Assembly: GCA_017539105.1 (NCBI GenBank)
Contig: JAFYHQ010000040.1
Location: 1-64,000 of the forward strand
From: Erysipelotrichaceae bacterium
GTDB lineage: Bacteria > Bacillota_I > Bacilli_A > Erysipelotrichales > Erysipelotrichaceae
Direction: 5' to 3'
Length of the DNA: 64,000 nucleotides
Part shown: positions 6,158 through 10,612 of the stretch, one piece after another
Numbering within the stretch: position 1 is the first letter of the stretch
Layout of the letters: every line of letters starts with the position of its first letter
Position numbers and translations under genes: made by a program
The notes under the pieces: generated by a model
Databases searched by the model: none
The model's input: only the letters and a program-made list of their open reading frames with translations
Told to the model about the DNA's origin: nothing

Positions 6158-6723
6158 TCAGGTACCTTGCTCAAAAATGTCTTATACAATGCCAGATATA
6201 AAATGACTGCCACGAAGACACAGACCACCGCATTGATGGCTGTCGCCCCTGCGACCCAGGTCGCAATGATCTTGGCGGCTTCCTGCGGAATGCCAAGAAT
6301 ATACTGGCGGTAAAGATAACCGACGATCGGATCGAAGATCACATTGAAACCAAGCCCTGCCACGGCAGAAATCGCTGCAGCCTTTATGATGTCTTTGCGT
6401 TCCGTTTTCTGTTGCAGGCCAAGCTTTCTGGCAACCGTTCCGGCAATGAAGCCGATCATGAATTTCAAAATAAATGTCTTCGGTGCGGAAGTGATATAGC
6501 GGGGATCGATCAGATCGGCAATCGACAGTCCGATCGCTCCGGCCAGACCTCCATATACAGGTCCGAGAAACCATGAAGAAAGCACCACGACCGCATTCGC
6601 GATATGGATCGCGGTAGAAGTTCCTGCCGTGATCGGAATCGTGATCTTTCCATAAGTGAAAGCGACATAGTTGATGACCGCAAACATTGCCGCATAGACC
6701 AGTTTTCTCGTTTTATTGTTCAT
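6154..6723 (-). CDS. ECF transporter S component in the cysteine operon
   Basis: 189-residue membrane protein with about five or six transmembrane segments. The motif SSWFLGPVYGGLAGAIGLSI and the following DLIDPRYITSAPKTFILKF are characteristic of a subgroup of ECF S components. It should bind a small molecule and dock on the shared ECF ATPase module. It overlaps the 3' end of the serine acetyltransferase gene by 11 bases and the next lipoprotein by 4 bases, so it is part of the cysteine-attenuated transcript. That context makes a sulfur-containing substrate or a PLP-type cofactor reasonable guesses, but neither is shown by the sequence. Confidence 0.82.
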   Translation of the reverse strand: MNNKTRKLVYAAMFAVINYVAFTYGKITIPITAGTSTAIHIANAVVVLSSWFLGPVYGGLAGAIGLSIADLIDPRYITSAPKTFILKFMIGFIAGTVARKLGLQQKTERKDIIKAAAISAVAGLGFNVIFDPIVGYLYRQYILGIPQEAAKIIATWVAGATAINAVVCVFVAVILYLALYKTFLSKVPE

Positions 6724-7492
6724 CTCTCTTATTATCTCCCTTTGTGCTGGAAGTAATCAAGGCATCCGCATGGATGGTCGAACCGTCTGCCACAAAGGTA
6801 TCGCCACCCAGAATGGTCGCGTTCGCATAAAGCGTGACGTGATTGCCGATGTTGGGATGACGTTTCCAGCCTTTCTGCAGATGTCCGTTCTCGTCTTCCT
6901 TGAAGCGTTTGACACCCAGTGTTACACCATGATACATACGTACATTGTCGCCGACAACTGTTGTTTCACCGATGACGATACCCTGTCCGTGGTCGATGCA
7001 GAAGGATTCTCCGATCTGCGCGCCCGGATGGATGTCGATGGCAGTCGTTTCCCTACCCAGTTCTCCGATGACTCTGGCAAGGATAGGTATGCCTAACGTA
7101 TACAGCTCATGGGCAATGCGGTAATGGAAGATCGCATAGAAGCCCGGATAGGAAAGGATGACTTCGGTATAAGCCTTGCAGGCAGGGTCGCCATAGTAGA
7201 TGGCTTCCACATCTTTATAGAGCTTTCTTTGAATCTCCGGCAGGGCTTCCAGGAAACGCGTGATGATGGTTTCGTCATCAGAAAGCTTGGCGATTTCTTT
7301 GCCCAGTTTATCTTCGATCGAATCCAGCAGCGCTTCCCGGTCGATTTCTTCTTCCGTGAAGTACCTTCCAAACAGCAGTAGACGGAGTTCATTCAACGCT
7401 TCCTTGATGTTTCCGACATTCAAGGTATAATCCGTTTCCACGAATCCTTCGTAACGTTCGCTGATCTGATTTGCGAGTTCTTTCTTATCCAT
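6713..7492 (-). CDS. cysE: Serine O-acetyltransferase, EpsC type
   Basis: 259 residues. Makes O-acetyl-L-serine from serine and acetyl-CoA, the step before cysteine synthase. The N-terminal half is helical; the C-terminal half has left-handed beta-helix hexapeptide repeats. The catalytic pair is visible as Asp153 in DIHPGA and His168 in IDHGQG, followed by GIVIGET and the YHGVTLG turn. The length and the start fit the EpsC subgroup, which has a longer N-terminal region than short SATs. It lies 3 bases after the cysK stop, so it is co-transcribed with cysK under the poly-Cys leader. Confidence 0.93.
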   Translation of the reverse strand: MDKKELANQISERYEGFVETDYTLNVGNIKEALNELRLLLFGRYFTEEEIDREALLDSIEDKLGKEIAKLSDDETIITRFLEALPEIQRKLYKDVEAIYYGDPACKAYTEVILSYPGFYAIFHYRIAHELYTLGIPILARVIGELGRETTAIDIHPGAQIGESFCIDHGQGIVIGETTVVGDNVRMYHGVTLGVKRFKEDENGHLQKGWKRHPNIGNHVTLYANATILGGDTFVADGSTIHADALITSSTKGDNKRDEQ

Positions 7493-7495
7493 AAT

Positions 7496-8431
7496 CTACT
7501 CCTCACTGAACATGGCAGTCGATAAATAACGGTCTCCGGAATCCGGCAGGATGACCACGATATTCTTGCCTGCGTTTTCTTCTTTCTTTGCCAGCTGTAT
7601 GCTTGCCCATAATGCCGCTCCGGCTGAGATGCCTACCAGCAGTCCTTCTTTCTTTCCGAACAAGGCGGCTGTTTCGATTGCATCTTCGTTGACGACACGG
7701 ATGACTTCATCATAGATATCTGTATCCAGTACGCTTGGAATGAAGTTGGCTCCGATGCCTTGAATCGCATGAGGACCGGCTTTGCCTCCTGAAAGAAGAG
7801 GCGAACTGTCCGGTTCGACCGCAACGACTTTCACATTCGGGTTCTTTTCCTTGAGATAACGTCCCGTTCCGGTGATCGTACCGCCTGTGCCTACGCCTGC
7901 AACCAGGATGTCGACAGTCCCATCGGTATCGTTCCAAATCTCCGGTCCGGTCGTTTCATAGTGCGCCTTCCAGTTGGCAGGATTGTCGAACTGGGCAGGG
8001 ATGAATGAATCAGGAATATCTCTTGCGAGTTCGTCGGCTTTCTCGATCGCTCCGGCCATGCCCTTGGCTCCTTCGCTTAAAACGATTTCCGCGCCATAGG
8101 CTTTGATCAGCTTCCGTCTCTCGATCGAGAAGGTCTCTGGCATGACGATGATGACCCGATAGCCTTTCGAAGTGCCTACCGCAGCCAGACCGATACCGGT
8201 ATTTCCCGAGGTCGGTTCGATGATGACGGAACCTTCCTTGAGGATTCCTTTCGCTTCCGCGTCCTCGATCATCGAACGGGCGATGCGGTCTTTGATCGAT
8301 CCGGTCGCATTGAAATACTCCAGTTTTCCGATGAGTCTGGCTTTGAGATCATATTCTTTTTCAAGGTGTTTGAGTTCCAGCAATGGCGTATTGCCGATGA
8401 GTTCTAATGTATTGGTTTTAATATTTGTCAT
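7496..8431 (-). CDS. cysK: Cysteine synthase A (O-acetylserine sulfhydrylase)
   Basis: 311 residues, the usual size for CysK. PLP enzyme that replaces the acetyl group of O-acetylserine with sulfide to give cysteine. The PLP lysine is Lys47 in ATGSIKDR; TSGNTG (74-79) is the substrate-binding loop and GVGTGGTITG the phosphate-binding loop. I start it at 8431, where GGAAGGA lies upstream; the longer frame to 8494 runs back through a terminator stem and is not credible. First structural gene of the operon, 30 bases downstream of an intrinsic terminator that can be replaced by an antiterminator pairing with the leader ORF. Confidence 0.95.
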   Translation of the reverse strand: MTNIKTNTLELIGNTPLLELKHLEKEYDLKARLIGKLEYFNATGSIKDRIARSMIEDAEAKGILKEGSVIIEPTSGNTGIGLAAVGTSKGYRVIIVMPETFSIERRKLIKAYGAEIVLSEGAKGMAGAIEKADELARDIPDSFIPAQFDNPANWKAHYETTGPEIWNDTDGTVDILVAGVGTGGTITGTGRYLKEKNPNVKVVAVEPDSSPLLSGGKAGPHAIQGIGANFIPSVLDTDIYDEVIRVVNEDAIETAALFGKKEGLLVGISAGAALWASIQLAKKEENAGKNIVVILPDSGDRYLSTAMFSEE

Positions 8432-8460
8432 ATATTTATCCTTCCTTAAAGTGCTGACGG

Positions 8461-8492
8461 TAAAATAAAATCCAGGATACGAACCCTGGATC
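8461..8492 (-). terminator. Attenuator terminator ahead of cysK
   Basis: On the minus strand ATCCAGGG...CCTGGAT folds to a 7-bp perfect stem, extendable by G-T and T-A pairs to 9 bp with a TCGT loop, followed by TTTTATTTTA. The 5' arm (GATCCAGG, 8485-8492) can instead pair perfectly over 8 bases with CCTGGATC at 8541-8548 inside the leader ORF, giving a mutually exclusive antiterminator. Confidence 0.85.
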
Positions 8493-8519
8493 ACTTATCG
8501 AAATTGAGGAATGCTTGTA

Positions 8520-8594
8520 TTAAAACGTTCCCTGACAGCGGATCCAGGTCCTATCAATACAGCAGCAGCAACATACATTCTTTCTGTTTGTCAT
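8520..8594 (-). CDS. Poly-cysteine leader peptide for cysK operon attenuation
   Basis: 24-codon ORF starting ATG at 8594 behind AAAGGAG, ending TAA at 8520. Codons 8-12 (8559-8573) are TGT TGC TGC TGC TGT, five cysteines in a row, with a sixth at codon 20. Codons 16-18 (ACC TGG ATC) hold the strand able to pair with the 5' arm of the downstream terminator. Classic attenuation logic follows: with enough Cys-tRNA the ribosome runs to the stop, covers this strand, and the terminator forms; with too little it stalls on the Cys codons and leaves the strand free to block the terminator, so cysK and cysE are made. This is inference from sequence, but ORF, codons, ribosome site and both structures all agree. 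Confidence 0.85.
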   Translation of the reverse strand: MTNRKNVCCCCCIDRTWIRCQGTF

Positions 8595-8622
8595 ATCCTG
8601 TCTCCTTTCGCCGTCAAGCTTA

Positions 8623-8656
8623 TTTATACTGTACTCCTATGAAAAGAATAATGCAA
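8623..8656 (-). promoter_or_regulatory. Candidate promoter of the cysK operon
   Basis: On the minus strand TTGCAT is followed after 17 bases by TACAGT; an overlapping TATAAA is an alternative -10 box. It lies just downstream of the S9 peptidase stop and about 30-60 bases before the leader ORF. The two options cannot be told apart by eye. Confidence 0.5.
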
Positions 8657-8665
8657 ACGATATTA

Positions 8666-10612
8666 TCAGCGCGTATGCGTATCGAACCAGCCGGTGATCT
8701 CCTGCAGACGGCGGATCCGATGCGAAGGCTTGCCGCTGCGTGAAAGCTCATGGTTCTCGCCATGGAACAGTACCAGCCTGGTTTCGATATTCCGTTCTGC
8801 CAGTGCCTGCATCATCTGCATCCCTTCCGGGAGCGGACAGCGGTAATCCTGGTCGGAATGGATGAATAGTGTCGGCGTCTTGACATGATCTGCATATTTC
8901 AAAGGAGAATGTGCCCAGAGCTTGTCCACATCCTTCAGCATGTCGTCTGTTCCGTTCTGATCGGTCGCAAAATAGAAGCCGATATCGCTCAAATAGGTAA
9001 AGCCCGGCCAGTTGGCGATGGAACGCTGGGAAGCGGCACAACAGAAACGATCCGTATGACCGATGATCCAGTTGGTCATGAAACCGCCATAGGATCCTCC
9101 TGTCTCGCAAAGTTTCGTTGTATCGATTGCCGGGTATTTCTTCAATACCGCATCGACAAAATCCATCAGGTTGCGAAAATCGATACCGCCATACTGTCCC
9201 CGGATATCCGCAAAGGCGTCTCCGCGTCCGTCGGAGCCCCTGATATTCGTAAACATGACAAAGTATCCCTTCGAAGCCCATACCTGCATCTCGTGGAAGA
9301 ACGCCTTGGAATAGATCGCTCTCGGCCCTCCATGCACATCCAGGACAGCGGGGTATTTCTTTTTCCTGTCATAGCCTTTCGGAAGCAGGACCCATCCGTT
9401 GAGTTCCAGGCCCTCCGATACATAGGTCAGTTCCTGCGGACGGGCTGCATATTTCTCTTTCAGGACATTCTTGTTGAATGCCGTCAGCTGTTTCGTTTTC
9501 TTTGTCGCAAACGAATACTCGTAGAGTTCCGGCAGACTCGTATCATCGCTTCCGCAGAAGATGATCCTGTCCTTGCTGACATCGAAGAAGGAAATCAGCG
9601 GCATTTTCAGCAGCGTCCTGCAGCGGATCCGGGAGTCGATGCTCCAGAGTTCGACATGATCCTTTTCGGTTGCCAGCGTATATAAGAGATCATCTTTCAC
9701 GACGCTGCCCTTGCCTCCGCCTAAGAGCGTATCCGTCGCTACCGCATCATAAAGGGAACGGTCTGGGCTTGACAAAGGGATCAGGTTTCCATCTTCCAGA
9801 AGATGGAACTTCCCTGTTTCGTTCAGACCGAAGGTCTTGCCATCGGTCGCATAAACATAAGGTCTGTCCTTCAGGAAAGACACATCGTATATCATTTTAT
9901 CCCGTCTGTCATAGAGACAGATGGTTTCGTTCTTATCGGGATCATAGACATACAGATCATCATAAAGAGGCTGCTTGCGGGTATAGCTGCTTCCCCAGTA
10001 GCAGATCTTCCTGTCGTGGATCTGTATGCCTGATACCGCAAAGTATTTCTCGGTGATACGTTTTGCCTTGAAAGGCTTCAGTGTCGCCACAAATAAGGCT
10101 TTCCGTTTCTTGTTGATGAAACCCGCGCCATTGAACCAGTAAGGGATCTCATCCAGTACTTCATAGTCCGCTTCTTTCTTCCTCTTCTCCTGATGTTTCA
10201 AGAGCTTCTCTTTGGAATACCGGTAAAGATCAGGCTCGTTCGCATCGATCCCCGCCAGAAAAACGATCGTGTTAGGATCCAGCACTTTCAATGAAGATAT
10301 CCCTAAAGGAAACGACAGGAACGGACTTCTTTTTCCGCTGTGGATATCCAGAAGAGACAGTTTCTGATAGACCGCTTTCTTGCTGGAATTCTCCTCTGAA
10401 ATAATCAGACGGTCATCGTCATACCAGGCAATGATACCGGTACTTTTGCTTGCTTTAAAAGCTTTCCTGTTGACATAGACGGTGCGGAAATAACTGTCTT
10501 TCTTTTTATCGATTTCCGCCAGCTGATAGGCATAATCCTTGCCGGAAGGAGAAAAAGAAAGATTCTCGATAAAACGGAATTTTAACAGATCTTCAATCAT
10601 GATACTCTTCAT
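8666..10612 (-). CDS. S9 family serine peptidase (acylaminoacyl-peptidase/dipeptidyl-peptidase type)
   Basis: 648 residues with no signal peptide, so cytoplasmic. The first ~390 residues have the beta-rich propeller pattern of S9 peptidases; the last ~250 are an alpha/beta-hydrolase domain. The triad is visible: Ser507 in GGSYGG, Asp589 in HSDQDYRCP and His621 in GENHE. It should remove acyl-amino acids or dipeptides from short peptides, supplying amino acids. AGAGG precedes the ATG at 10612; a second ATG four codons in is possible. It ends just before the cysK promoter and appears to be a single-gene unit. High confidence in family, low in exact substrate. Confidence 0.92.
   Translation of the reverse strand: MKSIMIEDLLKFRFIENLSFSPSGKDYAYQLAEIDKKKDSYFRTVYVNRKAFKASKSTGIIAWYDDDRLIISEENSSKKAVYQKLSLLDIHSGKRSPFLSFPLGISSLKVLDPNTIVFLAGIDANEPDLYRYSKEKLLKHQEKRKKEADYEVLDEIPYWFNGAGFINKKRKALFVATLKPFKAKRITEKYFAVSGIQIHDRKICYWGSSYTRKQPLYDDLYVYDPDKNETICLYDRRDKMIYDVSFLKDRPYVYATDGKTFGLNETGKFHLLEDGNLIPLSSPDRSLYDAVATDTLLGGGKGSVVKDDLLYTLATEKDHVELWSIDSRIRCRTLLKMPLISFFDVSKDRIIFCGSDDTSLPELYEYSFATKKTKQLTAFNKNVLKEKYAARPQELTYVSEGLELNGWVLLPKGYDRKKKYPAVLDVHGGPRAIYSKAFFHEMQVWASKGYFVMFTNIRGSDGRGDAFADIRGQYGGIDFRNLMDFVDAVLKKYPAIDTTKLCETGGSYGGFMTNWIIGHTDRFCCAASQRSIANWPGFTYLSDIGFYFATDQNGTDDMLKDVDKLWAHSPLKYADHVKTPTLFIHSDQDYRCPLPEGMQMMQALAERNIETRLVLFHGENHELSRSGKPSHRIRRLQEITGWFDTHTR

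Follow-up and report, generated by a model that had tools for sequence, protein, structure and literature searches.

The window, by which is meant the whole 64,000-nucleotide stretch analysed here (contig JAFYHQ010000040.1 of assembly GCA_017539105.1, from an Erysipelotrichaceae bacterium), carries on its minus strand a cysK gene, a cysE-like gene downstream of it and, upstream of both, a leader that holds a short cysteine-rich ORF, a terminator and several segments able to pair with one another (Table 1). The cysE-like gene was assigned from its best NCBIfam match, cysE, which at 155 bits lies below the cut-off of 211, and from a Pfam SATase_N match of 35.8 bits (cut-off 21).

Table 1. Features of the cysK leader and of the genes that follow it, in window coordinates
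Feature	Coordinates	Strand	Basis or remark
cysK, cysteine synthase A	7496..8431, ATG 8431	minus	TIGR01139 437 bits, cut-off 351
cysE-like serine O-acetyltransferase	6713..7492, 3 nt after cysK	minus	NCBIfam cysE 155 bits and Pfam SATase_N
Leader ORF, MTNRKNVCCCCCIDRTWIRCQGTF, then stop	8594-8520	minus	24 codons; sequence; kept in relatives
Five successive Cys codons (8-12), presumed sensor	8573-8559	minus	Sequence
Leader ribosome-binding site, GAAAGGAGA	8601..8609	minus	Sequence; upstream of leader ATG
Region 1, CAGGAT	8595..8600	minus	Between ribosome site and ATG; can pair with region 2 or 4
Region 2, CCTGGATC, antiterminator 5' arm inside the ORF	8548-8541	minus	Covaries
Region 3, GATCCAGG, antiterminator 3' arm and terminator 5' arm	8492-8485	minus	Terminator scan, covariation
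Region 4, CCTGGATT (8476-8469), with T-rich tail, terminator 3' arm	8461..8476	minus	Terminator scan, swap test 3:4
P0 (clamp) 5' arm, GCTTGACGG	8619-8611	minus	Just upstream of leader ribosome site; swap tests, pair counts
P0 (clamp) 3' arm, CCGTCAGC	8460-8453	minus	Just past T-run; swap tests
Promoter-like pair TTTGCA (8657-8652), 18 nt spacer, TACAGT (8633-8628)	8628..8657	minus	8/12 consensus bases

An earlier reading of the sequence only had described the 24-codon ORF with its ribosome site and its Cys codons 8-12, a terminator with a T-run behind it, and perfect complementarity between the terminator 5' arm (region 3) and a segment inside the ORF (region 2); all three were confirmed, and codon 20 of the ORF is a sixth Cys. 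Scanning 8300-8800 for terminators returned a single site, 8492-8469, with 10 pairs including G-U and a T-rich tail (shuffle control: mean 0.5 sites, sd 0.8). The anatomy given by the sequence-only reading was thus right as to ORF, terminator and antiterminator, but region 1 and the post-terminator clamp, P0, had been missed. A ribosome site like GAAAGGAGA is present in most of the relatives' leaders, not in all. A script searched the 64-kb window for short ORFs that have a ribosome-site motif, a terminator-like hairpin downstream and a run of at least 3 of any of ten residues; among the three ORFs that it returned, the poly-Cys leader had the most stable hairpin.

A plain promoter scan gave no promoter on the minus strand at the leader. 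A permissive script, run without a shuffled control, placed a promoter-like pair 24 to 36 nt ahead of the leader ATG in 18 of 19 genus leaders. In the window the letters of this pair imply a transcript start near 8621, so that the P0 5' arm would be the predicted start of the transcript; GCTTGACGG probably lies at its 5' end. The covarying P0 arm upstream of the ribosome site likewise argues for a start upstream of about 8619, and against one downstream of 8594, which the sequence-only reading had named as a result that would tell against it. Ahead of the TTGCA element, at 8667-8658 (minus strand), stands GATAATATCG, which includes a short palindrome and recurs in many genus leaders, in the same place in several of L001-L019; it is possibly an upstream promoter element or an operator.

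A CysK protein search of 61 genomes gave matches in 49. Every one of the 19 fetched genus loci with a CysK at least 75% identical (L001-L019, from 19 genomes) has a short ORF with a Cys run before cysK in the same arrangement, and the leader is absent at two fetched genus cysK loci, L022 (genome G008) and L025 (G017), where CysK is 67-68% identical; genome G018 (CysK 62%) and distant CysK paralogues (46-52%) were left out of this reading. A covariance model, R1, was built from the 19 leaders and run on 36 genus, 294 order and 272 family genomes. The family genomes gave 60 places at E <=1e-4, of which 58 were read, E-values alone not separating leaders from non-leaders; 47 proved to be leaders on reading, 41 of them at cysK, and 11 of the 60 were rejected (L067, L101-L106, L108-L110, L251). 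Two matches of the order search outside the family, L100 and L107, were false on reading (genomes G098 and G102 left out). The total is therefore 41 Cys-codon leaders before cysK, all within the family Erysipelotrichaceae and spread over four genera: the window's own with 20 (two of them in G031), g23 with 16, g53 with 3 and g56 with 2. The 22 beyond L001-L019 precede a CysK 67-83% identical to that of the window (for L081, at a contig end, over 68 residues only).

Across the 41 cysK leaders the longest Cys run spans 2-6 codons. With starts chosen by script, the Cys codons begin at position 7-11 in 39 of them and at codon 17 in L014 and L015, whose ribosome sites are weak and whose starts are uncertain. 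Of the 40 leaders tested for a T-run after the hairpin, the script placed it in 37, and in the other 3 it was found by hand. Downstream of the Cys run the peptide is variable, and the core of region 2 stands in frame 0, 1 or 2 relative to the leader ATG in 6, 26 and 9 leaders, respectively. Its occurrence in all three frames indicates that past the Cys run conservation lies in the RNA and not in the peptide.

A strict pattern scan of public genomes (exact CCCGGAT plus ATCCGGG) returned 90 stretches; among the 80 listed, 7 had a T-run and a short Cys ORF by script, and the 7 leaders appear to be those of G003, G022, G024, G027, G031, G033 and G034, with no new cases. One further stretch flagged for its T-run, L186, reads as chance. 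In 30 cysS loci there was no convincing R1 match (best E 0.099). Two loci deserve separate mention. At L022 (G008) a 12-codon ORF, MKNYKAFFRCCK and then a stop, with a GGAGG site, lies about 100 nt before the attenuator-less cysK, next to a divergent Rrf2 gene; no terminator was seen by eye at this ORF. Genome G031 (loci L062-L064) combines an Rrf2 gene with leaders at two cysK-cysE loci, one MFS leader and one His leader; given its 3.4 Mb size and 6% contamination, the assembly may be mixed.

Pairing was assessed by a species-swap test, in which hybridisation energies of arms from the same species were compared with those of arms swapped between species, independently of alignment. The sample was one representative from each of 26 groups of the 40 cysK leaders (L250 left out); groups were made by eye, and the permutations treat them as exchangeable. 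None of 5000 permutations was as good as the native arms for the antiterminator 2:3 (z -6.7), the terminator 3:4 (z -8.0), 1:2 (z -6.3), 1:4 (z -8.5) or P0 (z -8.3); four control pairings drawn from these segments gave no signal (z -0.1 to -0.8). The results for 2:3, 3:4, 1:2 and 1:4 are not mutually independent, since region 1 resembles region 3 and region 2 resembles region 4; P0 uses segments other than those of regions 1-4. A few arms were misplaced by the script, which can only weaken the swap signal.

RNAalifold, unprompted, found the 2:3 helix and paired region 1 with region 4, with double changes in 8 of 15 pairs and a small covariation term (-1.15). Alignment A1 showed double changes in 5 of 11 antiterminator pairs; 79.6% of its cells were paired (column shuffles 70.1%, no more than 48.4% after sliding), and 57 cells were double-changed, against 26.9 in shuffles. 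Two of the five pair measures failed to beat column shuffles, namely pairs with a double change (12 vs 10.3, matched in 74 of 500 shuffles) and pair types (34 vs 34.7, matched in 351 of 500). Alignment A3 was fitted to the model and pair counts lean to the model, so weight is placed on the swap tests. Compensatory change in a mutually exclusive antiterminator was found by RNAalifold, pair counts and swap test alike. The relatives thus keep both the Cys-codon ORF, in 41 cysK leaders, and the compensatory pairing whose loss, according to the sequence-only reading, would have counted against it.

Other modes of cysteine regulation were sought at the locus. No T-box (RF00230) match was found in the window or in the 10 genus cysK loci searched of the 19, and no Rfam 15 family matched at the leader (window 8400-8750, E up to 1). 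The window's genome has 15 T-box matches at E <=1e-3, and T-boxes are present in all 36 genus genomes, so their absence at the leader, which had been claimed beforehand, is not a failure of the search. CymR, of the Rrf2 family, is a protein repressor that controls cysteine genes in Bacillota; it has cysK as a target in common with the leader and differs from it in being a protein. The operon had also been read as apparently doing without CymR. No Rrf2/CymR protein scored above the Pfam cut-off of 30 in the draft genome G000, which is 89% complete (best 21.6 bits). Rrf2 exceeds the cut-off in 4 of 36 genus genomes, 1 of the 19 with a cysK leader (G031) and 3 of the 17 without; as 14 of the 17 leaderless genomes also lack Rrf2, its absence alone says little and the leader cannot be called its replacement within the genus. 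Many genomes are incomplete, so single absences mean little. G008, whose cysK has no leader, carries three Rrf2 genes, one of them divergent from cysK, and in the sister family cysK lacks the leader and is preceded by an Rrf2 gene at 4 of 8 fetched loci (L020, L021, L024, L028).

The leader has the parts of a leader-peptide attenuator, an ORF with ribosome site and sensor run and a terminator between the ORF and cysK. Its best explanation, very probably, is ribosome-mediated transcription attenuation in response to how much charged tRNA-Cys is available. When cysteine is plentiful, the ribosome would read the five Cys codons without a pause and pass over region 2, upon which regions 3 and 4 would form the terminator and cysK-cysE would be off. 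When cysteine is short, the ribosome would stall at codons 8-12 and leave region 2 free to pair with region 3, so that the terminator would be blocked and cysK-cysE transcribed. In an untranslated leader region 1 could hold region 2, which would again lead to termination. What the data show is the sequence, its conservation and its covariation; the switch is predicted by folding, and we infer that the ribosome stalls and that cysteine sets the outcome.

Placing the first Cys codon in the A site of a modelled ribosome left region 2 free in 37 of 40 leaders, as the script assigned it (wrongly in at least L004, L081 and L088); in the window it was 12 nt clear of the ribosome edge. With the ribosome at the stop codon, region 2 was fully covered in some leaders; in the window 0 of its 8 nt were covered, so that there the terminator would need region 1 or the right timing to form. 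Only RNA downstream of the ribosome entered the equilibrium folding of the window leader. The comparison of occupied and unoccupied Cys codons that had been suggested gave, for the stalled ribosome, a predicted antiterminator of 0.52 vs a terminator of 0.38, and with no ribosome a terminator of 0.95 and an antiterminator of 0.01; with the ribosome at the stop the terminator was also 0.95, region 2 being excluded by construction. Under a stalled ribosome the antiterminator was favoured in only 19 of 40 leaders, and the model therefore needs a co-transcriptional order in which 2:3 forms before region 4 is made.

P0 is a predicted helix between the bases before the leader ribosome site and those past the T-run. 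Its 3' arm is made only when RNA polymerase passes the terminator, and P0 is thus possible in read-through RNA only. The swap test for P0 was repeated separately in 13 genus groups and 13 outside groups, with 0 of 5000 permutations as good in each. The leader's own tail ranked in the top quarter for 24 of 40 leaders; P0 did not stand out (rank >0.5) in 10 of 40 (L006, L014, L015, L063, L082, L083, L086, L089, L090, L095). Together with the 1:4 pairing, P0 would close the leader ribosome site in read-through RNA: its predicted openness in the window is 0.52 for the terminated transcript and 0.15 for the read-through one, and it drops in 31 of 40 leaders. Compared with 12 swapped tails each, the real tail closed the site more strongly in 19 of 26 groups (Wilcoxon p 0.001); compared with 12 shuffled tails each, it did so in 20 of 26 (Wilcoxon p 0.0002). 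The structure is supported by these tests; as to purpose, P0 could be a commitment lock, a 5'-end cap, or both.

A reading on which P0 serves mRNA stability, its paired 5' end acting against 5'-end-dependent decay, and not ribosome-site shut-off, is a serious contender that we place somewhat below even. Paired 5' ends matter for mRNA decay in Bacillota, and the promoter-like pair puts the P0 5' arm at or near the first transcribed bases; the ribosome-site closure that is also predicted, with real tails beating swapped and shuffled ones, speaks for shut-off. The two roles are not exclusive. That the P0 arms are a DNA operator (an inverted repeat for a regulator) or a chance match, and no RNA helix, we regard as unlikely. 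A motif, GACGRCG, is indeed common to many leaders in the window's genus, and in the 10 leaders in which P0 does not stand out the leader's own tail is equalled in pairing by over half of those from other species. However, the arm sequences differ widely between species (e.g. L091, L092, L098, L099) and even these very different arms still match their own partner, the signal holds in the 13 non-genus groups, and a fixed regulator site would not vary freely on both sides.

The same scaffold was found with other sensor codons. A His-run leader matched by R1 (L064) stands before a family-3 solute-binding ABC transporter, and a second (L069) before a binding protein 69% identical to that of L064. 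An MMM leader (L096) precedes an ATPase whose N-terminal fragment is best matched by MetN. CCC leaders were found before an ATC hydrolase with a periplasmic binding protein (L065, with L068 98% identical); the hydrolase we take to be a cysteine-related enzyme. CC and CCC leaders precede an MFS transporter (sugar or GPH type) with an SDR oxidoreductase (L062 2444-2617, L066 134-288), and a CCCCIC leader (L061 544-730, minus strand) precedes an ORF without a Pfam match. For the target genes of L061, L062 and L066 we see no link to cysteine. At L062 the MFS gene is followed by a small protein without a family match and a mycofactocin-type SDR oxidoreductase. The L061 leader is of the poly-Cys type found at cysK, and its genome, G010, also has a leader at cysK; it is perhaps a moved or copied attenuator.

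The clamp swap test gave no support in the non-cysK leaders L061, L065, L068, L064 and L096 (rank 0.77 or worse), and ranks of 0.19, 0.04 and 0.27 in L062, L066 and L069. In the two His leaders the ribosome-site region matches a stretch further downstream over 8 bp; they share identical letters there, and the match is therefore no evidence of covariation. That these attenuators form a modular family in which the sensor codons (Cys, His, Met) can be exchanged, and which on cysK would carry a read-through-only clamp that closes the ribosome site and caps the 5' end, so that the sensor is read once per transcript and the committed mRNA protected, is a proposal that we hold with as much doubt as credence. 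We know of no described attenuator with such a commitment lock, and nothing like the P0 clamp appeared among the literature matches listed, in which subscription journals are thinly covered.

The Cys leaders before genes without an evident cysteine role (L061, L062, L066) bear on a further reading, that the leader does attenuate but reads a general slowdown of translation or stress at Cys codons (oxidation, metals, antibiotics) instead of cysteine supply. The ermC leader, according to the part of PMC2965389 available, senses a general slowdown. The sensor codons match the gene, however, in the His, Met and most Cys cases, and 41 leaders stand before cysK, which makes this reading very unlikely. 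Scarcely credible is a functional Cys-rich peptide (e.g. for metal binding) followed by an ordinary constitutive attenuator: CxC patterns do occur past the Cys run in several species, but the peptide is variable there, the region-2 core is found in all three frames, and the RNA of the ORF covaries with the terminator arm. A chance ORF before an ordinary terminator is ruled out by covariation and by conservation among relatives, which makes chance untenable.

Ribosome-mediated sensing of charged tRNA-Cys, the preferred reading, would extend the set of amino acids sensed by leader peptides in Bacillota to cysteine and probably to methionine, in a lineage in which cysK stands beside an Rrf2 gene instead in some sister-family genomes, and would offer a directly testable case of a single RNA scaffold on which the sensor codons can be exchanged. 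If the clamp is real, it would be a new layer in textbook attenuation: existing only after the decision to read through, it could make that decision irreversible.

Polycysteine leaderless ORFs of mycobacterial cys operons were reportedly described by Canestrari in 2020. Cys-run leader peptides in Actinobacteria have been predicted, with no conserved terminator hairpin in the part of the source available (PMC1262725). As far as the accessible accounts go, the mycobacterial ORFs resemble the cysK leader in placing Cys-codon runs before cysteine genes, but they are leaderless and lack a terminator, whereas the leader described here has a ribosome site and an intrinsic terminator. Nearer in layout is the uORFC-8-2 motif before cysS in Rhodobacterales (PMC8632094, in the portion available), a short ORF with tandem Cys codons and an intrinsic terminator for which ribosome-mediated attenuation has been proposed; it differs in belonging to Alphaproteobacteria, in its cysS target and in having two Cys codons, which usually lie at 14-15 within the first stem. 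No sequence relation between uORFC-8-2 and the cysK leader was shown.

Within Bacillota, the ilv-leu attenuator Rli60 of Listeria monocytogenes has been shown by experiment to be ribosome-mediated (PMC5864092). In the accessible part of that paper it shares with the cysK leader a leader peptide with regulatory codons and a terminator and antiterminator (segments 2, 3 and 4), and differs in its branched-chain codons, in its order of bacteria and in that no post-terminator clamp is described there. Leader peptides of hisS/hisZ are described in Bacillota (PMC2965389, as far as available), and His leader-peptide attenuators have been predicted in the B. cereus group, Peptostreptococcaceae and Erysipelotrichales (PMC9413887), the available text naming six Erysipelotrichales species and the genera Eggerthia, Erysipelatoclostridium, Catenibacterium, Coprobacillus and [Clostridium]. 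These His attenuators come from the same phylum and partly the same order, have 3-5 sensor codons with terminator and antiterminator, and are likewise prediction only; they differ in serving histidine genes, the comparison being by description, not by alignment. The earlier remark that no such leader had been seen described in the phylum therefore has to be narrowed: His and branched-chain leaders are described, on the accessible parts of PMC2965389, PMC9413887 and PMC5864092, and it is the cysteine version that was not found among the literature matches listed, subscription journals being thinly covered. What appears new here is the covarying post-terminator P0 helix, together with that cysteine version in Bacillota, a phylum where leader-peptide attenuation was already described for histidine and the branched-chain amino acids.
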